NCBI GenBank assembly: GCA_016928355.1
Contig: JAFGKW010000006.1
Span: forward strand, 1-64,000
Source: Methanomicrobiaceae archaeon
GTDB lineage: Archaea; Halobacteriota; Methanomicrobia; Methanomicrobiales; Methanomicrobiaceae
Direction: 5' to 3'
Length of the DNA stretch: 64,000 nucleotides
Below, piece by piece: positions 42,927 to 54,865 of this stretch. The stretch's first letter is position 1. The number at the start of each line of letters is the position of its first letter. A program made the position numbers and the translations under genes. A model generated the notes under the pieces. The model saw only the letters and a list, made by a program, of their open reading frames with translations, searched no databases and was not told the DNA's origin.

Positions 42927-43028
42927 ACGGGACATTGATGGCATAAACACTCTGCCGGGATGGGACGGGAAGTTTTTTGGTTTTTTGGAAAAATCCGAAA
43001 AATACTAATACTTTTGTAATCAGAGTGC

Positions 43029-43045
43029 AAATCTTTTTTAGATTT
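43029..43045. promoter_or_regulatory. Perfect palindrome AAATCT-N5-AGATTT at the dtxR-like start
   Basis: Six-base arms at 43029-43034 and 43040-43045, centred on TTTTT and ending at the base before the ATG at 43046. A likely operator for autoregulation by the encoded DtxR-type protein; a TATA-like AAAATACTAATAC lies about 20 bases upstream. No Shine-Dalgarno, so the mRNA may be nearly leaderless. Confidence 0.5.
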
Positions 43046-43726
43046 ATGGATCAGTCTGACCGTGAGGATTACCTGGAAGCGGTAATAATGCATTCTGCGG
43101 AGGGGCGCGGAGCTGAGACTCTAAATTTCCTCTCCGGGTTAATGGATAGAGATGCAGATCAAATCGGGGCGGATCTTCGTGTTCTTGAAAAAGAGGGTGA
43201 TCTCGTTATCGAAGAGGGCGGATCGATCAGCCTGACCGAAGAGGGCAGATCCACCGGTGAGTCTGTACTGAAAAAGCACAGGATCCTTGAATGTTTCTTT
43301 ACCGAAATGCTCGGGATGGACCCGGATACGGCTTCAAAGGAGGCATGCGAGATCGAGCATGCAGCCTCCGAGGCTACTGTAAATAAAATAGGAAACCTGC
43401 TGTCGGGAAGCGGCGTCCGGTGCAGGGGAAGACGTCATGGTCCCGGATTTGTGGAGACACACTTCCCGAAAAAAGAGTGCCGTTTTGACGTTATCGATGA
43501 TTTTTCCGAAGGAGATATACTGAAAGTCGTAGGGATGAGGCACGGTCCCGGCGGGGGAAGAAGGCTCATTGATTTGGGTATCATTCCCGGTGAAGAAATA
43601 AGGATTGTCAGGAGGCTCCCAGGGAGATCCGTTCTCGTATCGGTCAAAGGCAGCGAGGTTGCCATAAGCCCTGAGATTGCAGGAAGAGTAGTGGTTGAAA
43701 AATTACCTGATACGGACAGCCTATGA
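43046..43726 (+). CDS. DtxR-family metal-dependent regulator fused to a FeoA (SH3-like) domain
   Basis: 226 residues from the ATG at 43046 (MDQSDREDYLEAVI). Residues 1-65 are a winged helix, 70-125 the DtxR dimerisation/metal region (KKHRILECFFTEMLG with His and Cys/Glu ligands, CEIEHAASEATV), and 150-225 a FeoA-type SH3 domain (LKVVGMRHGPGGGRRLIDLG). Expected to repress iron uptake when ferrous iron is plentiful. An in-frame start at 42977 would add 23 residues not typical of the family. Overlaps feoB by four bases, so it probably regulates its own operon and perhaps supplies FeoA function. Confidence 0.88.
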   Translation: MDQSDREDYLEAVIMHSAEGRGAETLNFLSGLMDRDADQIGADLRVLEKEGDLVIEEGGSISLTEEGRSTGESVLKKHRILECFFTEMLGMDPDTASKEACEIEHAASEATVNKIGNLLSGSGVRCRGRRHGPGFVETHFPKKECRFDVIDDFSEGDILKVVGMRHGPGGGRRLIDLGIIPGEEIRIVRRLPGRSVLVSVKGSEVAISPEIAGRVVVEKLPDTDSL

Positions 43727-45585
43727 AGTTTGCCCTGATTGGAAACCCCAACGTCGGGAAATCGCTGATATTCAACCAGCTGACAGGCATAGGAGTCGAG
43801 ATATCAAACTTTCCGGGAACCACAGTCGACATGCTCTCCGGAAATGTATGTTACCAGAAGGAGAGACTCGAACTCATTGACTTCCCAGGAATATATTCTC
43901 TTGAGGGAAGCACCGAGGAGGAGGAACAGGTAAGGGCATACCTCCGGAAAAACGACATTGATGCTCTTATTGTAGTTCTGGATGCGACAAAACTTGAGAG
44001 AAATCTCTATCTCCTGATTCAGGCGGCCGAATACAAAATACCCCTGATAAATGTCGTAAATATCGCAGACGAGGCTGAAAAATCAGGCATTATAATAGAT
44101 TATGAAAAGCTCTCGTCGATTCTCGGCTGTAAGGTCATCCCGACCGTTGCAGTGGCGGGTAAGAATATCGACCGGATAATACCTGCAGCGATGCAGGATG
44201 CCGTCGTCATCGATCCGGGTGTACCTTATGGAAAACACATCGAGGCCGGGGTGAGGAGCCTTGTAAAGATTACGGGCTGCAGCAGAATGGATGCACTACT
44301 CGCCCTCCAGGGAATCGGAGAGGATAAGGATCTCATGGAGGCTGCAGAGACCATAGCTTCCGAGATTGAAGAAGATCACCAGATGTCGCCGCACCAGATA
44401 ATCGCCACCAACAGGCACAATGAGGCTGACAGAATTGCGTCAGAGGTTATTGAGAGCGACGGGGCCGGGTCGAAGAGATTATCATTTGATATCGACAGCC
44501 TCCTGACACGGGTTATTCCCGGTGTTCCCATACTTGCGGCCGTTCTCTTTTTCACACTGCTTGCAGTCTTTATTATTGGTTCATTCCTTGAAGAGACGAT
44601 CGTCGGGCTTTTTGAGGTATATATAATTGAGCCGATGTATTCCCTTGGCCTTTCACCTTTCTGGGAGAAGATGGCATTTTCATTCCTTATTGCAGTAGAG
44701 GCCGGGCTTGGAATTGCCTTCCCGTTCGTATTCACATTCTATATTCTTGTATCGATACTCGAGGATTCCGGATATATGACGAGGGGGGCCTTCCTTGCTG
44801 ACAGGGCGATGCACAGGATTGGTATGCACGGGCAGGCGCTGATCCCGATGATCCTTGGATTCGGGTGCAATGTTCCGGCAATAATGAGTATCAGGCAGCT
44901 CTCGAAGAGGGAGAGGATAATCGCATCATTCCTGATCACGATGGTCCCGTGTTCTGCAAGAACCGTGATAATTGCAGGTATCGTGGCGGTTTTCATAGGG
45001 ATTACCGCCGCCTTTTCGATATATCTTCTTGTATTCGTTCTCATCATTCTGACAGGCCTTGTCCTGACACGCTTTGCCCCCGGGGAGAGATACGGGATGA
45101 TTCTCGAGATGGCTCCCCTCAGGAAACCCCGGGCAGACCAGACACTCAAAAGGGCATGGCTCCATATGAAGGAGTTCCTCTTTATCGCAATGCCTCTCCT
45201 GCTTGTGAGCAGCGTATTTCTAGGGATGCTCGATTATTATGGAATTCTTGCAGAGTTCCAGAGGCTCTTCGCACCTTTCATGGAGCAGGTGCTCGGTCTT
45301 CCCGATTACGCCTCAACAGCTCTTATATTCGGAATTTTCAGGAAGGAGATGGCTTTTGAGACACTTGCAGTGCTTGCAGGAACAGCCGATCTCGGGGCTG
45401 TTATGGCCGCATCCCAGCTGTATATATTTGCGGTTGTGAGCGTTCTCTTCGTTCCCTGCATATCGACAATTGCAGTATTGTACAGGGAGATGGGGCTTAA
45501 GATCGCTGCAATGGTCTCTCTTTATACTCTTTCACTTGGTATGATCTTTGGTGCGCTTTTAAATGCAATCTTCAAAATATTGTAG
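43723..45585 (+). CDS. feoB: Ferrous iron transport protein B
   Basis: 620 residues. N-terminal G-protein domain: G1 GNPNVGKS, G2 region FPGTTVD, G3 DFPGIYSLEG, and a G4 NVVNIADEAE in place of the usual NxxD. Then membrane domain with two Gate motifs: GYMTRGAFLADRAMHRIGMH, MILGFGCNVPAIMSIR and MVPCSARTVIIAG. Imports Fe2+ driven by GTP. Slightly shorter than bacterial FeoB (about 770), usual for archaea. Translationally coupled to the DtxR-FeoA gene, and followed by a hairpin terminator. Confidence 0.95.
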   Translation: MKFALIGNPNVGKSLIFNQLTGIGVEISNFPGTTVDMLSGNVCYQKERLELIDFPGIYSLEGSTEEEEQVRAYLRKNDIDALIVVLDATKLERNLYLLIQAAEYKIPLINVVNIADEAEKSGIIIDYEKLSSILGCKVIPTVAVAGKNIDRIIPAAMQDAVVIDPGVPYGKHIEAGVRSLVKITGCSRMDALLALQGIGEDKDLMEAAETIASEIEEDHQMSPHQIIATNRHNEADRIASEVIESDGAGSKRLSFDIDSLLTRVIPGVPILAAVLFFTLLAVFIIGSFLEETIVGLFEVYIIEPMYSLGLSPFWEKMAFSFLIAVEAGLGIAFPFVFTFYILVSILEDSGYMTRGAFLADRAMHRIGMHGQALIPMILGFGCNVPAIMSIRQLSKRERIIASFLITMVPCSARTVIIAGIVAVFIGITAAFSIYLLVFVLIILTGLVLTRFAPGERYGMILEMAPLRKPRADQTLKRAWLHMKEFLFIAMPLLLVSSVFLGMLDYYGILAEFQRLFAPFMEQVLGLPDYASTALIFGIFRKEMAFETLAVLAGTADLGAVMAASQLYIFAVVSVLFVPCISTIAVLYREMGLKIAAMVSLYTLSLGMIFGALLNAIFKIL

Positions 45586-45635: not shown

Positions 45636-45671
45636 GTCAGGTATATTGATTATTGAGAGAATTTGTTAATA

Positions 45672-46148
45672 ATGGAAGAAAGGGTGGCAGAGGGAAGAAA
45701 AGTAAAGGTAATCGGTTGTGGCAATATCCTGATGGGGAATGATTCTGCAGGCCTTCGAGTAATAGAAATCCTTGAAGAGTCCAATCCCTCCTTTGAATTA
45801 ATTGATGGAGGTACGGGGGGACTCGGGCTTCTTCCGCTGATGGAAGGTGCAGATCTTGTAATTATCGTGGATGCAATGATAGGTATTGGGGAGAAACCCG
45901 GAGATATTAGAATATTTAATAAAACTCCTCCTTACAGACCGTCCAAAATGTCATTCCAGGATGTCGGTGTTGCCGAGGTCATAGATATTGCAGGAGAACT
46001 GCTTCCGGATGTTGAAGTCGTTGCAATAGGGATTGAGGCCGGGGAGATAAAGGAATATAGTGATAAGGTCGATCCTGAGGTCATGGAGGGTGTTCAAAAG
46101 GCAGCTTTGCAAATCATTGATCTGGTGGCGGGAAGCTCTCAAGCCTGA
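45672..46148 (+). CDS. [NiFe] hydrogenase maturation protease (HycI/HyaD family)
   Basis: 158 residues from the ATG at 45672 (a TTG at 45663 is also in frame). N-terminal VIGCGNILMGNDSAGLRVIE contains the family GxGNxLxxDD-like nickel-sensing Asp (here ND), IDGGTGGLGLLPLMEGADLV and IVDAMIGIGEKPGDI with the second Asp. It removes the C-terminal tail of a hydrogenase large subunit after nickel insertion. The large subunit at 50292-51671 ends with a 19-residue tail after its DPCxxCxxH motif and is the obvious client. Separated from the operon by a 113-base AT-rich gap. Confidence 0.88.
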   Translation: MEERVAEGRKVKVIGCGNILMGNDSAGLRVIEILEESNPSFELIDGGTGGLGLLPLMEGADLVIIVDAMIGIGEKPGDIRIFNKTPPYRPSKMSFQDVGVAEVIDIAGELLPDVEVVAIGIEAGEIKEYSDKVDPEVMEGVQKAALQIIDLVAGSSQA

Positions 46149-46261: not shown

Positions 46262-46831
46262 ATGCAACTGCCCAGAGGCAGATTTGATCGGTTTATCCGT
46301 GATGAAACTGTATCGGGGATTATAAGGGAATTGGGGGAGACTGGGTACTCCGGCAGTTGTTCCGGGATCTTCGGAGAATCAGCTGCAGAACTGATTTTTG
46401 AAAACGGAAGGATCATCCTTGCCGAATCTTCCGGAGATAAAGGCGTAGATACCCTTAGCACTCTCCATTCCAATCCCGGCGGGAAAGTCGCCGCAGAACT
46501 GTCGGTTTACGATCAGGCACAGCTTAAGCTGGCCAGAGAGTTCAATCCGAAATGCATTGTCCTAAAGGAGGCCTTTGAATCCCTGTTTTCAGGCGGGCAG
46601 GCAGAAGAGAAGCCTGCCGTTCAGAACAGCACAAAGGCCGTGGACAATGAATCCGGGCCTGAAACCGTTGAGAAAACTCCGGAAAAAGAGGATGACGAGA
46701 TCTTTCTCGATGAATCTGAGATCGATTCTATTGCCCAAAATTTCCGTTCAGGTGCCAAAGATCTTCTTAAGAAAATAAATCTTGACCACCTGGTGGTTGA
46801 AGATAAATCCGGGGAGGACAATAATGATTAA
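46262..46831 (+). CDS. Protein with PATAN/DUF2226-like N-terminal domain; first gene of the hydrogenase operon
   Basis: 189 residues. Residues 1-110 form an alpha/beta domain (GYSGSCSGIFGESAAELIFE then NGRIILAESS) like small-GTPase-associated PATAN/DUF4388/DUF2226 domains, and similar in pattern to the N-terminus of the last gene (52042-52734). Residues 110-150 are an acidic linker, and the end is a helix (AQNFRSGAKDLLKKINLDHL). Such domains usually partner with roadblock proteins and P-loop switches; both follow here. Overlaps the next gene by eight bases. Family naming is tentative. Confidence 0.6.
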   Translation: MQLPRGRFDRFIRDETVSGIIRELGETGYSGSCSGIFGESAAELIFENGRIILAESSGDKGVDTLSTLHSNPGGKVAAELSVYDQAQLKLAREFNPKCIVLKEAFESLFSGGQAEEKPAVQNSTKAVDNESGPETVEKTPEKEDDEIFLDESEIDSIAQNFRSGAKDLLKKINLDHLVVEDKSGEDNND

Positions 46832-47483
46832 TATTGACATTGATCCAGTAGCATACGTTTTATTGTTCGTTACTTTGATGACAATTGTTCTGCTGGTCAT
46901 CCTGGTATTCATTATCAGGCAGCAGATGTATATGAAAAGGCTTTATGAGAGAGTCGGGCCGGAAATGGTGGCAGTTAAGCATTCCCCGCCCCCTTCACCG
47001 CCCTCTGCCGAAATACCTGCACCTCCTTCAGGAGAGGATCTTTCTTCTTATGATGCAGAGGCAATTGCCGCAGAGGCTGCGGCAAAACTCAGAGAAGAGG
47101 TTCTCATCAAGGAGAAGGAAGACGAGAGGCGGAGGCTTGAAGAGGAGAGAGGAAAAGACCCTGCCGAGTATTATCAGTCCGATTCGATCAGGGACAATCT
47201 TCTTGCACTTTTTGAGCGTTATAAGCTGAATTCATTTACAATGTCGACCTCGGACGGACTGGTAATCAGTTCGACCGACCCGAATCCCGAAGAGGAGGCG
47301 GCAAAGTACAGCTACCTGTATCAGCAGGAAAAACAGCCCGATGTGCCGAATATCAGACTGATCGGGGTTCCTTACAAGGGAGGGACTGTGGTCGGCATAG
47401 TTAAGGCAGACGATGAGCTTTCTGAAAAAGAACTTGAATTTATCGAACGCGATATCAACTTTATATTGAGAAAAACAGTTTGA
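46824..47483 (+). CDS. Membrane-anchored roadblock/LC7-like protein
   Basis: 219 residues from ATG 46824, chosen because GGGGAGG lies six bases upstream; a start at 46782 is rejected. Residues about 8-30 form one membrane helix (YVLLFVTLMTIVLLVILVFI), then a Pro-rich stretch (PPPSPPSAEIPAPP), an Ala/Glu/Arg coiled coil about 75-115 (KEKEDERRRLEEER) and a roadblock-like domain 120-219 (LERYKLNSFTMSTSDGLVIS with F at the first position). It should tether the complex to the membrane, with the roadblock domain in the cytoplasm. Confidence 0.75.
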   Translation: MINIDIDPVAYVLLFVTLMTIVLLVILVFIIRQQMYMKRLYERVGPEMVAVKHSPPPSPPSAEIPAPPSGEDLSSYDAEAIAAEAAAKLREEVLIKEKEDERRRLEEERGKDPAEYYQSDSIRDNLLALFERYKLNSFTMSTSDGLVISSTDPNPEEEAAKYSYLYQQEKQPDVPNIRLIGVPYKGGTVVGIVKADDELSEKELEFIERDINFILRKTV

Positions 47484-47517: not shown

Positions 47518-48312
47518 ATGACTATAGTGTTTACCATTGCATCCGGCAAGGGGGGGACCGGGAAGACGACAGTTACGTCAAATCTCGGGTCTATGCTGGC
47601 ATATTATAAAAAAAGGACATTCATTCTCGATGCTGATATGGGTATGGCCAATCTGGGTCTGGTCCTGGGCCTGGAGAAGATGCCCGTATCTCTTCATGAG
47701 GTGCTCGCCGGAAAGGCAAATGTCCATGATGCTATTTACGAAGGGCCGTTTGGTGTAAATGTAATTCCAAGCGGACTTTCGCTTGAGGGATTCAAAGATG
47801 CCAATCCGGACAGGCTTAAGGATGTCATGACCGAGATTGTGGATGAATGCGATATACTTATAATCGATGCTCCGGCAGGCATTAACCATGACGGGATAGT
47901 CCCGCTTGCCGTGGCTGATGAGGTCATACTCGTTGTGAATCCTGATATATCCTCAATAGTGGATGCCCTGAAGACTAAGATGCTTACAGAAATGATTGGA
48001 GGAACGGTTAGAGGTGCGATCCTCAATCGTGTAAGCAGCGTGGACGATGCCATGACCAAAGAGCAGATCGAAAAGATGCTCGGAGTAAAAGTCATCGGCA
48101 TGGTCCCGGAGGATGCAAATATAAGAAGGGCTTCGGCTGCCAGGGCACCGGTCGTAGTAAAGTTTCCCTCTTCTCATGCTGCAAAGGCATTCCGGAAGAT
48201 TGCAAGAGATATTGCCGGTGTACAGGCAAATGAAGAGGATATGGCTGTCGAAACCGTGAAGAAGGAAGGCTTTGTCGAGCGTCTTGCACGAGCTCTTTTC
48301 CCGGGGAGTTGA
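47518..48312 (+). CDS. MinD/ParA-family ATPase with amphipathic C-terminal helix
   Basis: 264 residues. Deviant Walker A GKGGTGKTT with the signature Lys, switch I DADMGMANLGLVLGL, switch II ILIIDAPAGI. After residue 240 is VKKEGFVERLARALFPGS, resembling the membrane-targeting amphipathic helix of MinD. Such ATPases dimerise on membranes with ATP and position or load partners. Lying between a membrane roadblock protein and hydrogenase genes, it probably localises or controls the hydrogenase rather than cell division; a metal-cluster-loading role (Mrp-like) is less likely as the CxxC motif is missing. Confidence 0.9.
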   Translation: MTIVFTIASGKGGTGKTTVTSNLGSMLAYYKKRTFILDADMGMANLGLVLGLEKMPVSLHEVLAGKANVHDAIYEGPFGVNVIPSGLSLEGFKDANPDRLKDVMTEIVDECDILIIDAPAGINHDGIVPLAVADEVILVVNPDISSIVDALKTKMLTEMIGGTVRGAILNRVSSVDDAMTKEQIEKMLGVKVIGMVPEDANIRRASAARAPVVVKFPSSHAAKAFRKIARDIAGVQANEEDMAVETVKKEGFVERLARALFPGS

Positions 48313-48318
48313 GAGAAG

Positions 48319-48516
48319 ATGGAAAGTAATGACTTGATAATTCTCGGCCTGTTGGTCCTGAACGTTTTATTCCTGGTAGTTATCGTTCTGATGAAGGTTC
48401 GTATCAACATGCTGTCACGAGAGATGAAAGAACTGAAAGGAAGGATGGAATTTTCCAACAGTGACATTGACCTGCTTGCGGACGCAATCCGTGATCTTGG
48501 CAGTACCAGGTTCTAG
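48319..48516 (+). CDS. Small single-span membrane protein
   Basis: 65 residues: a membrane helix at 7-26 (LIILGLLVLNVLFLVVIVLM) and a C-terminal helical stretch (MLSREMKELKGRMEFSNSD). Starts six bases after the MinD-like gene with GAGAAG upstream of the ATG. No family recognised. Its position suggests a second membrane anchor or regulator in the hydrogenase operon. Confidence 0.65.
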   Translation: MESNDLIILGLLVLNVLFLVVIVLMKVRINMLSREMKELKGRMEFSNSDIDLLADAIRDLGSTRF

Positions 48517-48554: not shown

Positions 48555-48800
48555 ATGATTCAGATTACAGTCGATGAGGATTCCTGCGTGGGATGCGGTC
48601 TTTGTGTAAAAGACTGTCCTATGAAGGTATTCGAATTAAAAGACGGACGCAGTGTTCCTTTAAGGCCGGAGGACTGCATGGGGTGCCTCTCATGTCATGA
48701 GATATGTCCGGCACAGGCACTTGAACATCGAGGAATATATCCGGCAAAGAGACATTATGTCGATATACGGGTATGCGAGATGCTGAACAGGGTGATCTAA
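48555..48800 (+). CDS. 2[4Fe-4S] ferredoxin
   Basis: 81 residues, with CVGCGLCVKDCP and CMGCLSCHEICP, two complete CxxCxxCxxxCP motifs, each binding a [4Fe-4S] cluster. A short C-terminal extension ends MLNRVI. The likely electron link between the hydrogenase small subunit and an unidentified partner. Its stop overlaps the start of the V4R gene by one base (TAATG). Confidence 0.93.
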   Translation: MIQITVDEDSCVGCGLCVKDCPMKVFELKDGRSVPLRPEDCMGCLSCHEICPAQALEHRGIYPAKRHYVDIRVCEMLNRVI

Positions 48801-49363
48801 TGACTGCAAGTTATGTCGACGAACTGCATGAAAAGTTCAGCACAGACATCAGTTACAAATCCGAGGATGTCCCGCTGAACTGCGTTCCTCCGGCAAAGGA
48901 GATCGAAGCGACGCTCCACGGGGTTATGAAGCTCAACGGGCTTGTAATACGGTCTCTTGAAGAGATCGCCGGAAGAGGTGCGAATGCAGTTACGTTCAGG
49001 GCCGGCAAGAAGTTCGGTCACGAGGTTGCGAAGTACTTCCAGAAGAGGGATGATATTGAGGATGCACTCCATGAATTGTCCGATCTCCTGATGGGACAGT
49101 ACTCCTTTGAGATATGGAAACCGGCCGGCAGCGATACTTTTGTCATTGAAGAGGGTGGTGATAAGTTCATCTACCTTGTATTCCATGACTGCATCGTCCG
49201 CCAGACACTCCGGAGAAACGGCCAGGAGCAGGCGGGTCCGCTCTGCCAGACTCTCTGCGGCTATGTCGTCGGTGCAATTGAAGAGATCACCGGAAAGCGT
49301 GCGAAGCTTGAAATTAAGCATACAGGGCCTAATGCCTGCCTGAAGAAACTTATATTGAAGTGA
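48800..49363 (+). CDS. V4R-domain-like (4-vinyl reductase / hydrocarbon-binding) protein
   Basis: 187 residues from ATG 48800, supported by AGGGTGA upstream. The middle and end follow the V4R pattern: FRAGKKFGHEVAKYF, then RQTLRRNGQEQAGPLCQTLC and GYVVGAIEEITGKRAKLEIK, with Cys residues at PLCQTLC and NAC that could bind metal or a cluster. V4R domains bind small molecules and occur in regulators and in photosynthetic maturation proteins. Between a ferredoxin and hydrogenase genes it may sense a ligand or assist assembly. Family call is by pattern, not search. Confidence 0.6.
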   Translation: MTASYVDELHEKFSTDISYKSEDVPLNCVPPAKEIEATLHGVMKLNGLVIRSLEEIAGRGANAVTFRAGKKFGHEVAKYFQKRDDIEDALHELSDLLMGQYSFEIWKPAGSDTFVIEEGGDKFIYLVFHDCIVRQTLRRNGQEQAGPLCQTLCGYVVGAIEEITGKRAKLEIKHTGPNACLKKLILK

Positions 49364-49377
49364 GGAGGTCCTGAGGT

Positions 49378-50295
49378 ATGAAAATAGCAATAGAGGAACT
49401 TGCCGGGTGCTCCGGCTGTACAATAGCTGTTCTGGACCTGCATGAGATGCTTCTTGATGTGGTTGAAAAGGCGGACATTGTCTATTCTCCCGTAATTATG
49501 GATGTGAAAGAGCCTCCTGAGGGGATAGATATTGCATTCGTCACGGGAGCTGTCAGAAACGAAGAGAACCAGGAGCGCCTTGAAATGATCAGGAAGAGAT
49601 CGAAGGTTCTTGTGGCTCTTGGAACCTGTGCATGCTATGGAGGCGTCTCGGGTCTTTCGATGCTGAGCAGCAATGAAGAACTCTTCAATAAGGTATACAG
49701 GGACGGGGCAACTGTTAAGGAAGACGGCAAGATCCCTTCACAGGTCCCGCCTTTTACCTACCGGGCCTTTGCAGTGGGTGACCTTGTAAAGATGGACTAT
49801 TACATCACCGGATGCCCACCCAAGGAGAAGTTCTTAAGGGAGATAATTCCCGCCCTTGTCGCAGGCGACAACATTGAACTCTCGAGAAAGTCTGTATGCT
49901 CTGAATGCGACAGGAAGATGGGTTCTGTCGAGGGATGGAAGCTAAAGCGCCGTTATGAAGGTGTTCCTGACAGGGAACACTGCCTGTTGGGCCAGGGATA
50001 CCTGTGCCTCGGGCCTGTAACATTCGGGAGATGCGGTGCGACATGCCCGAAGAACAATGTTCCGTGTCATGGCTGCAACGGCCCTTCACTCGATATTCTG
50101 AGGGAGCCCTGTCGTGATCTCTACAATATGATGGTCAGGAGGATAGCTGATCTTACCGACCACAAGGAAAAGGATATAGAAGCCGAACTTTACGATGTGG
50201 CTCACACGATGTACCCGTTCACAATCGGCAGTCTGATTATGGAAGACAAGGAGAATTCAAAGATACGTGATCTTGTTAAGGAGAGGAGCGGATGA
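49378..50295 (+). CDS. [NiFe] hydrogenase small subunit (MvhG/FrhG-like, group 3)
   Basis: 305 residues. Cluster ligands: ELAGCSGCTI at the proximal site, GTCACYGG, ITGCPP, then CSECDRKM and a Cys-rich stretch HCLLGQGYLC...CGATCPKNNVPCHGC that fits medial and distal [4Fe-4S] clusters. No Tat signal, so cytoplasmic. Most like the gamma/small subunits of F420-nonreducing (Mvh) and F420-reducing (Frh) hydrogenases. No mvhD or frhB lies beside it. GAGGAGG upstream of the ATG; overlaps the large subunit by four bases. Confidence 0.92.
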   Translation: MKIAIEELAGCSGCTIAVLDLHEMLLDVVEKADIVYSPVIMDVKEPPEGIDIAFVTGAVRNEENQERLEMIRKRSKVLVALGTCACYGGVSGLSMLSSNEELFNKVYRDGATVKEDGKIPSQVPPFTYRAFAVGDLVKMDYYITGCPPKEKFLREIIPALVAGDNIELSRKSVCSECDRKMGSVEGWKLKRRYEGVPDREHCLLGQGYLCLGPVTFGRCGATCPKNNVPCHGCNGPSLDILREPCRDLYNMMVRRIADLTDHKEKDIEAELYDVAHTMYPFTIGSLIMEDKENSKIRDLVKERSG

Positions 50296-51671
50296 AAGAG
50301 ATTACAATCAACCCGGTTACCAGGATCGAGGGACACGCAAGGGTAAAGATCAACCTCAATGATTCAGGCAATGTCGATTCCGCTCATTTTGAGGTCGTTG
50401 AGCTGAGAGGATTTGAGAAGTTTATGCTCGGTGCGGCCGTAGAGGAGGCTCCGAGGATAACTCCGCGTATATGTGGTATATGCCCGACATCACACCACCT
50501 TGCTTCAGCAAAGGCATGTGACGAGATATTCGGTGCGGCCCCTCCGTCTACGGGTAAGATGCTGCGTGAACTCCTGATGACCGGACAGTACATACATTCC
50601 CACTCTCTCCATTTCTTCATGCTTGCTGCACCCGATTTCCTTATTGGTCATGATGCTCCTGCAGCAGAGAGGAATGTTCTTGGACTGGTCAAAAAAGCCC
50701 CTGATATTGCCAAAAAGGCAATCGAGGTCAGGAAGTTCGGTCAGAGGCTGACAGAGGCTATCGGTGGAAAGCCTATCCATCCGTCAACGTGCATACCCGG
50801 AGGGGTTTCACATCCGCTTCCGGATGCAAAGAGACAGGAACTCCTGGAGATGAGTAAAAGCTCCCTTGAGATAGCCAAAGAGGGATGGAATATTGCGAAG
50901 ACAATGATGGATCAGACCGATCTTTCATTCGGTGCAGTCGATACTGCATTCATGGGAATGTCTGAGAACGGAAGGTTTTCACCTTACGAAGGTGCTGTAA
51001 GCATACTCGGGAAGGACGGAAGCAGCCTTTCGGAATTTTCGGGTGAAGGTTATCTTAATCATATAGAGGAGTATTCCGAGGACTGGTCATATCTGAAGTT
51101 CTCAAGGCTGAAGAGCGGTGAATTTTACCGTGTTGGACCTCTTGCAAGGCTTAACGTCGTAAAGGAGATGGGGACTCCGGAGGCCGACGCGGCACTTGCA
51201 GAATACAGGAGCATCTTTGGGGACTTTACACAGACGACACTCGCATTCAATATGGCAAGATATATCGAATTTCTGGCTTGCTGTGAGAAGGCAGTCGGGA
51301 TTCTTTCAGATCCGTCGGTCTCTGGTCCGGATGTAAGAACACCTGTCTCAGGTATCGCTAAATCCCGTGGGGTGGGGATAGTTGAGGCCCCCCGCGGAAC
51401 ACTTATCCATGATTATTCTGTCGATGAGAACGGATTCATCACCGACTGCAATCTTATAGTTGCAACATGCCAGAACAATTATGGTATGGATCGCGGTGTC
51501 GAGGATGTTGCCCGAAAAGTGGTTGTCAACGGCGAACTCTCACCCAGCGCCTCAAACCAGATCGAGATGGTGATAAGAGCCTATGATCCGTGTATCTCCT
51601 GTGCGACACATGCTATCGGGCAGATGCCACTGGATATCGAGCTTATCAGAGGAAAGAGAAAGGAAAAATAA
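50292..51671 (+). CDS. [NiFe] hydrogenase large subunit (MvhA/FrhA-like, group 3)
   Basis: 459 residues carrying both nickel motifs: RICGICPTSHHLASAKACDE near the N-terminus and DPCISCATH near the C-terminus. The four Cys bind the Ni-Fe(CN)2CO site. A 19-residue tail after the His (AIGQMPLDIELIRGKRKEK) is the expected target of the maturation protease at 45672. Catalyses H2 oxidation or production together with the small subunit. Twenty bases later comes a roadblock gene; all are on one strand with tight spacing. Confidence 0.94.
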   Translation: MKEITINPVTRIEGHARVKINLNDSGNVDSAHFEVVELRGFEKFMLGAAVEEAPRITPRICGICPTSHHLASAKACDEIFGAAPPSTGKMLRELLMTGQYIHSHSLHFFMLAAPDFLIGHDAPAAERNVLGLVKKAPDIAKKAIEVRKFGQRLTEAIGGKPIHPSTCIPGGVSHPLPDAKRQELLEMSKSSLEIAKEGWNIAKTMMDQTDLSFGAVDTAFMGMSENGRFSPYEGAVSILGKDGSSLSEFSGEGYLNHIEEYSEDWSYLKFSRLKSGEFYRVGPLARLNVVKEMGTPEADAALAEYRSIFGDFTQTTLAFNMARYIEFLACCEKAVGILSDPSVSGPDVRTPVSGIAKSRGVGIVEAPRGTLIHDYSVDENGFITDCNLIVATCQNNYGMDRGVEDVARKVVVNGELSPSASNQIEMVIRAYDPCISCATHAIGQMPLDIELIRGKRKEK

Positions 51672-51691: not shown

Positions 51692-52045
51692 TTGAAAATG
51701 CTGAAACAGATTCTTACTGAATTTATCAAACTTGATGGTGTTACTGCCGCAGTTGTCGCGGGGCGTGACGGGTTTGTTATCGAGAGTGCGGTGTCCGGGG
51801 ATATTGACATCGATGCCCTTGGTGCAATGGCTTCTACCGGTCTTGGAACCTCCGAGGCAATGAGCAGGGAGCTTGGAAAGGAGGAGATGAACCAGATCAT
51901 CATCGAACTCGAGGAGGGGCCGATCCTGATCTCCCCTCTCTCCGAGGATGAACTTATCGCAATTGTTGCCCAGAAGGATGTAAATGTGGGTAGGATCAGG
52001 TACGAACTTAAGAAAAACCGTGAAAGGATAATTGCAGCCTTATGA
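51692..52045 (+). CDS. Roadblock/LC7 domain protein
   Basis: 117 residues, a single roadblock domain (IKLDGVTAAVVAGRDGFVIE...LEEGPILISPLSEDELIAIV). AGGAG at 51680 is seven bases before a TTG at 51692, better placed than the ATG at 51698. Roadblock proteins dimerise and act on P-loop switches; in prokaryotes they accompany MglA-type GTPases, but here only the MinD-like ATPase is available. Overlaps the next gene (ATGA). Confidence 0.88.
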   Translation: MKMLKQILTEFIKLDGVTAAVVAGRDGFVIESAVSGDIDIDALGAMASTGLGTSEAMSRELGKEEMNQIIIELEEGPILISPLSEDELIAIVAQKDVNVGRIRYELKKNRERIIAAL

Positions 52046-52734
52046 ACGCTTCATTACCGGCCGGTGAGCGTGTCGCCTCTATGCAGGTTTCACTGGATAA
52101 ACTATTTGAGTTCAGTCCGGGTTTCACAGGCTGTGTCGTAATCGAACTCGATAATACGAACGGCTTTGTTCTTGTTGACGGCGGCAGGCCCGTTGCGGCA
52201 GCCTATGCTGCAGGAAACCTGAGACTGTCCGGAAGGCCGGCCTACGATACTATACTTAACAAGGAGTCTCTGACCTGCGTTCTGAATAAATATACAGGGG
52301 ATGAACTGGACGAAGCAAAGATATTAGTTCAGGAATCTTTTGGATTCGATATTGATGAGAGTTCAGGAGATCAGGAAGAGGAAGGATCCTCAGATGATGT
52401 CCTCTCCCCACAGACGCTTGAAAATGTTCTGAAGCAGCCGGGAGTAAAGGCAGTATCTGTCTTTTTCGAGGGATTTGCTCTCCAGTCTGCCGGAGATGCT
52501 GACTTCGAACAGGTTGCTGCATTATCCGAGGATTTTGTCCGGGCTGCAAACCAGATAACCGCTGATCTTGATATGGAGACCGCAACCCAGCTAATTCTTG
52601 AGACGCCTCAGGGAAAAATGATAATATCCCCCGTGGGCGATCTTTTCATATGTGTAGTTGCAGAGAATGACTCCCAGCTGGGACTTATCAGGCTTGCAAT
52701 ACAGACCATAAAGCACGATCTCGGCGAAGCCTGA
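52042..52734 (+). CDS. PATAN-like domain plus roadblock domain protein, last gene of the hydrogenase operon
   Basis: 230 residues. Residues about 12-100 match the pattern of the first gene's N-terminal domain (FTGCVVIELDNTNGFVLVDG then GRPVAAAYAAG). Residues 105-125 are an acidic Ser/Glu/Asp linker. Residues 126-230 form a roadblock domain (LKQPGVKAVSVFFEGFALQS...LETPQGKMIISPVGDLFICV). Starts on the preceding stop (ATGA), so co-translated. The third roadblock copy of the operon and probably a heterodimer partner of the other two. Confidence 0.75.
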   Translation: MNASLPAGERVASMQVSLDKLFEFSPGFTGCVVIELDNTNGFVLVDGGRPVAAAYAAGNLRLSGRPAYDTILNKESLTCVLNKYTGDELDEAKILVQESFGFDIDESSGDQEEEGSSDDVLSPQTLENVLKQPGVKAVSVFFEGFALQSAGDADFEQVAALSEDFVRAANQITADLDMETATQLILETPQGKMIISPVGDLFICVVAENDSQLGLIRLAIQTIKHDLGEA

Positions 52735-53167: not shown

Positions 53168-54865
53168 ATGAAAAAATATCTGGTTACAGTTGTTATGATT
53201 GTCCTGGCAGTTCTTGCTGCATTTTCGGGGTGTACAGGCACCTCCGGGACAGATGATACACAAAAAACGGTGATTGATACACAGAAAGCTGAAATGGCAT
53301 CTGTTGCAGAAACACTGAGTTTGTTGATTAATGATGGTCTCGGGGAGATTGATATCGGCCTCTCCGGAAACGCTGAAGTTATCTCCTCATCCGGCCTAAC
53401 AGGCGGTGCGGCTGAAAAAGCCCTGTCTGAGAACCTCTTAAATTACCCGTGGGCAATATCCTCACTTGTTATCACAAAAGAAGGGGTTGTTGTGACGGCA
53501 GTGCCCAAAAATTACGAGGAGATTGTCGGGACGGATCTTAGCTGGCAGTCACAGGTTCAGAAGGCCAACATAGAACAGAAACCCATCGTCAGCGATCTCT
53601 TCACAATGGCCGAAGGGTTTGCCGGAATTTCACAGAGTTATCCTGTATTTTCTTCATCCGGAGATTATCTTGGGTATACTGATATGACCTACAAACCCGA
53701 TATATTCCTCAGCAGGCAGATAAAGCCGGTTATAGAAGACACTTCATATGAGGTCTGGGTTGCCCAGATAGATGGAACACTCATCTATGATACAAAGTCT
53801 GAAGAGATCGGCAATAATCTCCTTACAGATCCGATGTACAGTGATTCCGCCCTGCAGGAAGTGTTAACCCGTATTCTGGCAGAGCAGTCCGGTACAGGTG
53901 AATATACCTTCTCGGACAAGACATGGAGCCACAATGTTACAAAGACCGCTGTCTGGAGAACTGCCGGGATCAATGATGCGGAATGGAGAGTCGTAGTCAC
54001 ATATTCAGGTGACGGGAGCGGAGACAAAACAACAGTTGCACCAACACCTGTTACGGATTCAACAGATACACGATATGAAAACCTTAAGTCCTTTGTCGGC
54101 GAAGCCGTCACTTATGCGAAGGTTCATGGTAAAGAATCCGCATTGGAAGAGTTCAATAACGTGGACGGGTCGTTTATCAACGGTGAACTCTATATCTTTG
54201 CATACGAAACAGACGGAACCGTAATAGCGCTTCCCTACCAGCAGGAACTGCTTGGAACCTTGAGGGCCGGAATTCCTGATTCAAACAGTGTTGAATTTAT
54301 CGATGCAGCGATTGATGCCGCAAAGGCTGGTGGTGGTTCGATCTACTATATCTACCCGAATCCTGAAGATGACTTCAAAGAGGAGTTAAAACTCTCGTAT
54401 GTAGAGCCAGTCGATGATGGATGGTTCGTCGGAGCAGGTATCTATCTCCCTGAAATTCCGGCAGAATTCAATGATGGAGAGAAGGATGAACTTGTAAAGC
54501 GGGTGAAGAATGCACGTGATTATGCACAGGTGAATGGACTACTGGAGGCAGTTGCGGCTTTCAACGATCCGGAAGGCAGTTTCGCAGATGGCGGGAATTA
54601 TATCTTTGCATACGATTATAACGGAACCACCCTCGCACTTCCGTTCCAGCCTGAATATATCGGCACAAACAGGCTCGGGTTTTCCGATACATACGGCGTT
54701 AAAATCCTTCAGTGGGAGATATCCGTTGCAAAGTGCGACGGGGGATTTGTGTATGTGCATTACTTCGATCCCGATACGGCTGATGCCCGCCTTAAAATGT
54801 GCTATGTAACACCGGTCGATGGCGAATGGTTTGTAGGGTCCGGGATCTATACTGAGAGTTTGTAA
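53168..54865 (+). CDS. Cache-domain lipoprotein with two tandem C-terminal Cache-2-like repeats
   Basis: 565 residues. Lipobox FSGC at about residue 20-23 gives an external lipid-anchored protein. Residues about 35-285 form a double-Cache/PDC sensor (YPWAISSLVITKEGVVVTAV, DMTYKPDIFLSRQ). Residues about 305-430 and 440-565 are two copies of one domain, each with YIFAYETDGT/YIFAYDYNGT, ALP(Y/F)Q and DGWFVGAGIY/GEWFVGSGIY. No output domain, so a ligand-binding protein that may pass a signal to a separate receptor, or an uptake/scavenging protein. GGTGA seven bases upstream supports the start. Confidence 0.8.
   Translation: MKKYLVTVVMIVLAVLAAFSGCTGTSGTDDTQKTVIDTQKAEMASVAETLSLLINDGLGEIDIGLSGNAEVISSSGLTGGAAEKALSENLLNYPWAISSLVITKEGVVVTAVPKNYEEIVGTDLSWQSQVQKANIEQKPIVSDLFTMAEGFAGISQSYPVFSSSGDYLGYTDMTYKPDIFLSRQIKPVIEDTSYEVWVAQIDGTLIYDTKSEEIGNNLLTDPMYSDSALQEVLTRILAEQSGTGEYTFSDKTWSHNVTKTAVWRTAGINDAEWRVVVTYSGDGSGDKTTVAPTPVTDSTDTRYENLKSFVGEAVTYAKVHGKESALEEFNNVDGSFINGELYIFAYETDGTVIALPYQQELLGTLRAGIPDSNSVEFIDAAIDAAKAGGGSIYYIYPNPEDDFKEELKLSYVEPVDDGWFVGAGIYLPEIPAEFNDGEKDELVKRVKNARDYAQVNGLLEAVAAFNDPEGSFADGGNYIFAYDYNGTTLALPFQPEYIGTNRLGFSDTYGVKILQWEISVAKCDGGFVYVHYFDPDTADARLKMCYVTPVDGEWFVGSGIYTESL

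Follow-up and report, generated by a model that had tools for sequence, protein, structure and literature searches.

Which partner exchanges electrons with the hydrogenase encoded at this locus bears on a question standing since 2009, namely the source of the H2 electrons used by heterodisulfide reductase (Hdr) in Methanomicrobiales. The enzyme is annotated as the standard Hdr partner, and its role in energy metabolism is probably an assumption, not a demonstrated fact. If the sole MvhAG of these organisms is independent of MvhD, it is wrongly counted as the Hdr partner in metabolic models and metatranscriptomes, and bifurcation must fall to formate dehydrogenase or to FrhAG. The sequences described below point to a lineage of soluble Mvh-like [NiFe] hydrogenases, here called V-type, that may work without MvhD and with a ferredoxin of its own, a reading given about an even chance of being correct. 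The co-inheritance of this ferredoxin, a V4R-like protein and MvhG, as well as the separate clade formed by the small subunit, are new.

Gene layout of the locus

The window, that is, the whole stretch of 64,000 nucleotides analysed, lies on one contig (C34) of a Methanomicrobiales MAG (1.93 Mb, 60 contigs, 84% complete). The coordinates that a sequence-only reading of this DNA had given are correct, with the genes for the ferredoxin and the two hydrogenase subunits all on the + strand (Table 1), and its statement that neither mvhD nor frhB is adjacent holds at the operon, where neither gene was found. It had also taken the ferredoxin for the only redox partner in the operon, overlooking the 188-aa ORF located between the ferredoxin and small subunit genes; the ferredoxin is therefore not the only possible partner. 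This gene starts with an ATG that overlaps the stop codon of the ferredoxin gene by one base (the mechanical ORF call begins at 48773), and an ATGA overlap joins the mvhG-like and mvhA-like genes, both overlaps being arranged as in an operon. In most Methanoculleus loci, too, a maturation protease gene lies close to the cassette.

Table 1. Genes of the hydrogenase locus and its surroundings, in window coordinates.
Feature	Position	Strand	Remarks
HycI/HyaD-family hydrogenase maturation protease	45663..46148	+	TIGR00072 94 bits; distinct from the frh-operon FrhD
Conserved protein of unknown family	46262..46831	+	Travels with MinD and roadblock genes
Protein combining a hydrophobic N-terminus, a coiled-coil-like central part and a roadblock-like C-terminus (by eye)	46782..47483	+	Conserved beside MinD; no match in Pfam
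MinD/ParA-type ATPase	47518..48312	+	TIGR01969 321 bits
Hypothetical protein, 65 aa, hydrophobic N-terminus	48319..48516	+	In the MinD-ferredoxin interval; shared by genomes of the genus and by some further members of the family
2[4Fe-4S] ferredoxin, 81 aa	48555..48800	+	All 8 ligand cysteines unchanged across 40 orthologs
V4R-like companion protein, 188 aa	48800..49363	+	Predicted fold; same genomes as MvhG
Hydrogenase small subunit, MvhG-like, V-type	49378..50295	+	Three [4Fe-4S] clusters; VhuG 252 bits, FrhG 72 bits
Hydrogenase large subunit, MvhA-like, V-type	50292..51671	+	VhuA 409 bits, FrhA 194 bits; PF00374
Robl1, MglB-like roadblock/LC7 protein	51692..52045	+	PF03259 E 2.6e-15
Robl2, second roadblock protein	52042..52734	+	PF03259 E 2.7e-7, residues 125-207

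An Mvh-type hydrogenase with a divergent small subunit

The hydrogenase is of the Mvh type and not of the Frh type, because the VhuG and VhuA models outscore FrhG and FrhA, although these best scores lie under the equivalog cut-offs of VhuA and VhuG (800 and 450 bits). The clusters of the Mvh/Frh kind proposed earlier for the small subunit are confirmed, with 12 of 12 cysteines for three [4Fe-4S] clusters present and invariant across 40 orthologs, an arrangement like that of 5odc_E. In the large subunit both Ni-binding CxxC motifs are kept, their ligands C61, C64, C434 and C437 being invariant, and the nearest solved chains are 7t2r_D and 5odc_F. The same genome also encodes FrhABG (on contig C55), likewise a group 3 [NiFe] hydrogenase; in contrast to this group 3a enzyme, the cassette has no FrhB in its operon, its small subunit is not FrhG-type, and both subunits score far lower with the FrhG and FrhA models.

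Compared with MvhADG of the HdrABC-MvhADG complex (group 3c; PDB 5odc), the V-type enzyme has the same subunit types, the same 12 cysteine ligands in the small subunit and the same Ni motifs. It differs in the absence of a linked mvhD, in a small-subunit clade of its own, in the C-terminus that follows the distal cluster, and in its constant companions, a 2[4Fe-4S] ferredoxin and a V4R-like protein. In Hdr-linked MvhG from several lineages the last cluster cysteine is followed by a conserved QGAxMISA-like stretch. V-type MvhG proteins have LREPCRDxYN there in Methanomicrobiales and Methanocellaceae, as well as a longer tail, and the two forms show no resemblance beyond that cysteine. The divergent region should lie near the expected electron exit towards MvhD. 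Cys245 is found in 19 of 22 V-type copies and in none of the Hdr-linked ones, whereas the extra Cys86 was dropped as a diagnostic residue because half of the Hdr-linked MvhG proteins carry it too.

The V4R-like companion protein

Eight residues of the 188-aa protein are invariant within Methanomicrobiales (C29, H41, H75, H130, C132, C150, H175 and C181). Four of them (C132, C150, H175 and C181) are also retained where other families have the protein linked to a hydrogenase, apart from a single undetermined residue among the four in one sequence of family f9. The protein likely holds a metal or ligand site. Searches with NCBIfam and with the V4R and MetOD1 models gave no match for it, and PF14196 matches weakly in 9 of 14 orthologs, with a score of 18 bits against a curated cut-off of 28.1. 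An AlphaFold2 model built with 14 orthologs (mean pLDDT 67) retrieved in Foldseek the phenol-sensor domain of MopR/PoxR, TRAPPC3 and H-NOX (E 3e-5, probability 1.0, TM ~0.5), and the predicted model has a V4R/H-NOX/TRAPP-type topology. A related methanogen domain is MetOD1, which has three conserved cysteines and kinship with V4R, H-NOX and ATC-hydrolase, and is fused to methanogen response regulators (PMC5847659). The 188-aa protein resembles the V4R, MetOD1, ATC-hydrolase, H-NOX and TRAPPC3 proteins in its predicted fold and conserved cysteine cluster, but differs from them in being a stand-alone protein tied to a hydrogenase and in scoring under the PF14196 cut-off.

Co-inheritance within Methanomicrobiales

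Ferredoxin, 188-aa protein and MvhG occur with full-length scores in identical sets of genomes, at least 76 of the 232 of the order, a lower bound given that two genomes (G003 and G083) have a partial mvhA where a contig ends. The weakest of the ferredoxin ortholog matches has an E-value of 2.6e-35, the cut-off being 1e-18. Within genus g8, one genome (G119) carries the cassette and a complete one (G120) has none of the three genes and retains mvhD; genera g6 and g7 also include members that have mvhD and not the ferredoxin, 188-aa and MvhG genes. The presence of mvhD in genomes that lost the hydrogenase extends to G110 and others.

Loss of the cassette has left scars at some loci. At L103 a scrap of the ferredoxin gene and the final 60 codons of mvhA remain ahead of Robl1, the stretch from protease to mvhA is gone except for two module genes at L104, and scraps of the ferredoxin gene, the 188-aa gene and mvhG are found on the short contig of L110. 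Robl1, on the other hand, has orthologs in 153 genomes, many of them without the hydrogenase, and the idea that the roadblock protein and the hydrogenase are obligate partners was therefore dropped. From the identical distributions and the scars, and from the differing distribution of the roadblock gene, it follows that the inherited unit consists of the ferredoxin, the 188-aa protein, MvhG and MvhA, and this unit sits beside a roadblock-MinD module. The Methanomicrobiales with the V-type enzyme have no further MvhAG among the matches listed and retain mvhD-hdrABC.

Relatives and paralogs in other families

Profile searching across the phylum (394 genomes) brought up relatives in four further families. 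Methanocellaceae keep the full set (ferredoxin, V4R, MvhG, MvhA, Robl1, Robl2, MinD), family f10 has the order ferredoxin, V4R, MvhG, MvhA, and family f9 has V4R, MvhG, ferredoxin, MvhA with an extra V4R-like gene in front. The V4R-like gene of family f24 lies away from any hydrogenase; a V4R-like match in G331 is not beside the hydrogenase either and, being probably an unrelated relative, was not counted as a cassette member.

A second MvhGA is encoded in four Methanocellaceae and in G234. In two of these Methanocellaceae it adjoins fwd-mvhD-hdrABC, and in G234 it is part of an hdrACB-mvhD-mvhGA operon. The mvhD gene is absent from every V-type neighbourhood examined, whereas the paralogs at four loci (L156, L157, L160 and L161) have it, and the pairing of mvhD with mvhAG that marks group 3c is not seen for the V-type. 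Neither does its small subunit group with the MvhD-linked ones, the tree separating V-type from Hdr-linked MvhG with a support of 100/99.9, in line with the differing C-terminus. The large-subunit tree unites the V-type copies of Methanomicrobiales and Methanocellaceae (99/100) and does not place those of f9 and f10 with the others, although a single V clade is not rejected (p-AU 0.44).

Some of these enzymes have been listed before. For Methanocella paludicola, a 2011 paper gives two Mvh sets, one of them free-standing (MCP_2492-2493) and paired with an unlinked MvhD (MCP_1575), apart from the hdr-linked MCP_2773-2774 (PMC3146512); the complete genome G248 shows this arrangement of a free-standing and an hdr-linked Mvh. 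In Methanoculleus marisnigri, Memar_1007-1008 are adjacent subunits with a protease (Memar_1014) as in the present operon. Both MCP_2492-2493 and Memar_1007-1008 are very probably V-type orthologs, published as ordinary HdrABC-partner Mvh in papers whose available parts do not remark upon the subfamily or its companions.

mvhD, Hdr and other redox genes elsewhere in the genome

The sequence-only reading had suggested looking for mvhD, frhB and hdrA outside the operon. In a search of this MAG (84% complete) no FlpD/MvhD domain was found, HdrA is represented only by a 47%-identical paralog of 442 aa on contig C44, and frhB is present in a complete frhADGB operon on C55. Two fdhAB pairs are encoded on C14, to which the PF04432 copies inspected there belong. 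A complete genome of the same genus (G112) has a fwdA-fwdB-fwdD-mvhD-hdrA-hdrB-hdrC cluster and two mvhD copies, the hdr-mvhD part lying in a 5.1-kb duplication with 94.6% identity. The FlpD/MvhD domain (PF02662) occurs in 179 of the 232 genomes of the order and in 119 of the 135 good ones. Because of these two copies and this wide distribution, and because a methanogen without Hdr is implausible, the joint absence of mvhD and its usual neighbour hdrA is most likely an assembly gap, and the same complete genome rules out that the lineage is characterised by having lost mvhD. Some ORFs of its hdr cluster, at first considered FrhB-like, are more likely FwdF polyferredoxins, judging by their position as in M. 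conradii.

The bare separation of mvhAG from mvhD was already known, having been published for Methanoculleus in 2009: that paper annotates Memar_1007-1008 as F420-non-reducing hydrogenase, with an MvhD (Memar_0622) encoded apart (PMC2686161). Since mvhD normally accompanies hdrABC in this order, as the 2009 paper also indicates, and since mvhDGA, hdrA and hdrBC form three separate units in Methanothermobacter (PMC3087415), non-adjacency to mvhD says little by itself. The question of the acceptor is nevertheless real, because of the separate small-subunit clade, the paralogs linked to mvhD and hdrABC, and the exact co-inheritance of ferredoxin and V4R protein.

The roadblock-MinD-pilus neighbourhood

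Robl1 follows MvhA in all complete Methanomicrobiales loci. In both Methanomicrobiales and Methanocellaceae it adjoins the cassette together with Robl2 and MinD; G234 has related roadblock and MinD genes nearby. MinD is near the cassette in many lineages, and accompanies Robl1 and Robl2 also where the hydrogenase is lacking; in such genomes the roadblock gene occurs with MinD, a PilB-like ATPase and T2SSF. Several genera have the latter two within the same cluster; in family f10 they lie immediately downstream of mvhA.

Proposed role and alternatives

In the preferred MvhD-independent reading, MvhA would react with H2, and electrons would pass the three [4Fe-4S] clusters of MvhG and be exchanged with the cassette ferredoxin at its distal end. 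The ferredoxin would not form a free pool but would serve this hydrogenase as its own partner or subunit, and the V4R-fold protein an obligate third component docking on or gating this exchange, perhaps as a ligand- or redox-responsive adaptor or as an assembly factor. Ferredoxin potentials are about -0.4 to -0.5 V; the reaction should therefore be reversible, running most easily towards H2 at the low H2 that these methanogens encounter, and a redox-balancing or sensing role would thus be as likely as H2 uptake. Of the three acceptors considered earlier (free ferredoxin, Hdr and a membrane carrier), ferredoxin is now the favoured candidate, as a dedicated partner instead of a free pool; Hdr is less likely, and the membrane carrier has no gene in the cassette to support it. 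The cassette, four genes with obvious candidate partners, is a genetically defined unit, and would represent a new use of the V4R fold. None of the published literature found tests the ferredoxin-partner, Hdr-coupling or sensing reading.

A possible, though rather doubtful, alternative is that this is an ordinary Mvh, which binds in trans the MvhD encoded in a distant hdrABC-fwd cluster and feeds HdrABC bifurcation as in Methanothermobacter. The V4R protein and the ferredoxin would then be accessory, involved in assembly or regulation, or, in the case of the ferredoxin, in taking up bifurcated electrons. Both Memar_1007-1008 (with Memar_0622) and MCP_2492-2493 (with MCP_1575) have been paired with an MvhD in publications (PMC2686161, PMC3146512). 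Electrons could still reach MvhD because all 12 cluster ligands match those of the Hdr-complex MvhG, the three-cluster subunit resembling 5odc_E, and the V-type enzyme, as the sole MvhAG seen among the matches listed in these Methanomicrobiales, could have assumed the Hdr role there, mvhD-hdrABC being kept (with fwd genes, as in G112). Canonical Mvh moreover has the mvhB polyferredoxin (PMC3087415), so a ferredoxin in the operon alone leaves Hdr coupling possible. Against this, mvhD is kept where the hydrogenase is lost, and Hdr can receive electrons from formate dehydrogenase (PMC11346949); in Methanocella and G234 the MvhGA linked to mvhD and hdr is the other paralog; the C-terminal region conserved in Hdr-linked small subunits is replaced; and the exact co-inheritance of the V4R protein would go unexplained.

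That the hydrogenase uses an unlinked subunit, either FrhB or a partner of the cytochrome/quinone type, to reduce F420 or a membrane carrier is very improbable. FrhB/FdhB-type proteins are encoded elsewhere in the genome, but the FrhB on C55 belongs to its own frhADGB operon, the copies inspected on C14 to fdhAB, and a membrane anchor gene is never a constant member of the cassette. Unlikely, though less far-fetched, is an H2 or redox sensor, in which hydrogenase, ferredoxin and V4R protein would signal to roadblock and MinD proteins controlling a PilB-type pilus or another polar structure. Such sensing is conceivable because the roadblock-MinD-pilus module usually adjoins the cassette, with PilB-like and T2SSF genes nearby in several genera and in f10, and it would agree with the predicted sensor fold and with the related MetOD1 on methanogen response regulators (PMC5847659). 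The module is, however, also common without the hydrogenase, and the proximity may reflect a shared neighbourhood; within this window no pilus genes were found, and no kinase or GTPase target was identified for the roadblock, MinD and sensor-fold neighbours. If real, the sensing device would be common to Methanomicrobiales, Methanocellaceae and two further families.

Flanking genes

The order of the DtxR-FeoA fusion, FeoB and the hydrogenase region is conserved in some genera (neighbourhoods L083, L088, L089, and L104), and the Cache-domain protein on the other side is conserved in both same-genus genomes.

Features flanking the hydrogenase region in the window
Feature	Position	Location
DtxR-type metal-binding domain fused to FeoA, then FeoB	42977-45585	immediately upstream of the hydrogenase region
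Multiple-Cache-domain sensor protein, secreted or lipoprotein-like, without a transmitter domain	53168-54865	3' of Robl2

A roadblock-roadblock-MinD-PilB-T2SSF cluster, possibly a polarity module for an archaeal pilus, is common across the order, whether the hydrogenase is present or absent (L101, L102, L103, L106-L109, L113, and L114, plus L042, L051, L052, L071, L090, L094, and L095).

Hdr and V4R-like relatives

The genome under study encodes a short HdrA paralog of 442 aa (G000:C44:41212-42462, L098), which is missing both ends of HdrA and shares 47% identity, across its length, with HdrA of the complete same-genus genome G112. The latter carries a tandem duplication of the hdrABC-mvhD block (G112:C1:2470600-2481900, L081-L082), with copies of 5.1 kb at 94.6% identity. 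A gene for an HdrB-like CCG protein lies 5' of the cassette, in divergent orientation, in three Methanocellaceae (L116, L118, and L119); none was seen upstream of the cassette in Methanomicrobiales neighbourhoods. In family f9, which carries the cassette outside Methanomicrobiales, a tandem pair of V4R-like genes precedes mvhG on its 5' side (L122 and L124), one being near the hydrogenase-linked family and the other far more diverged.
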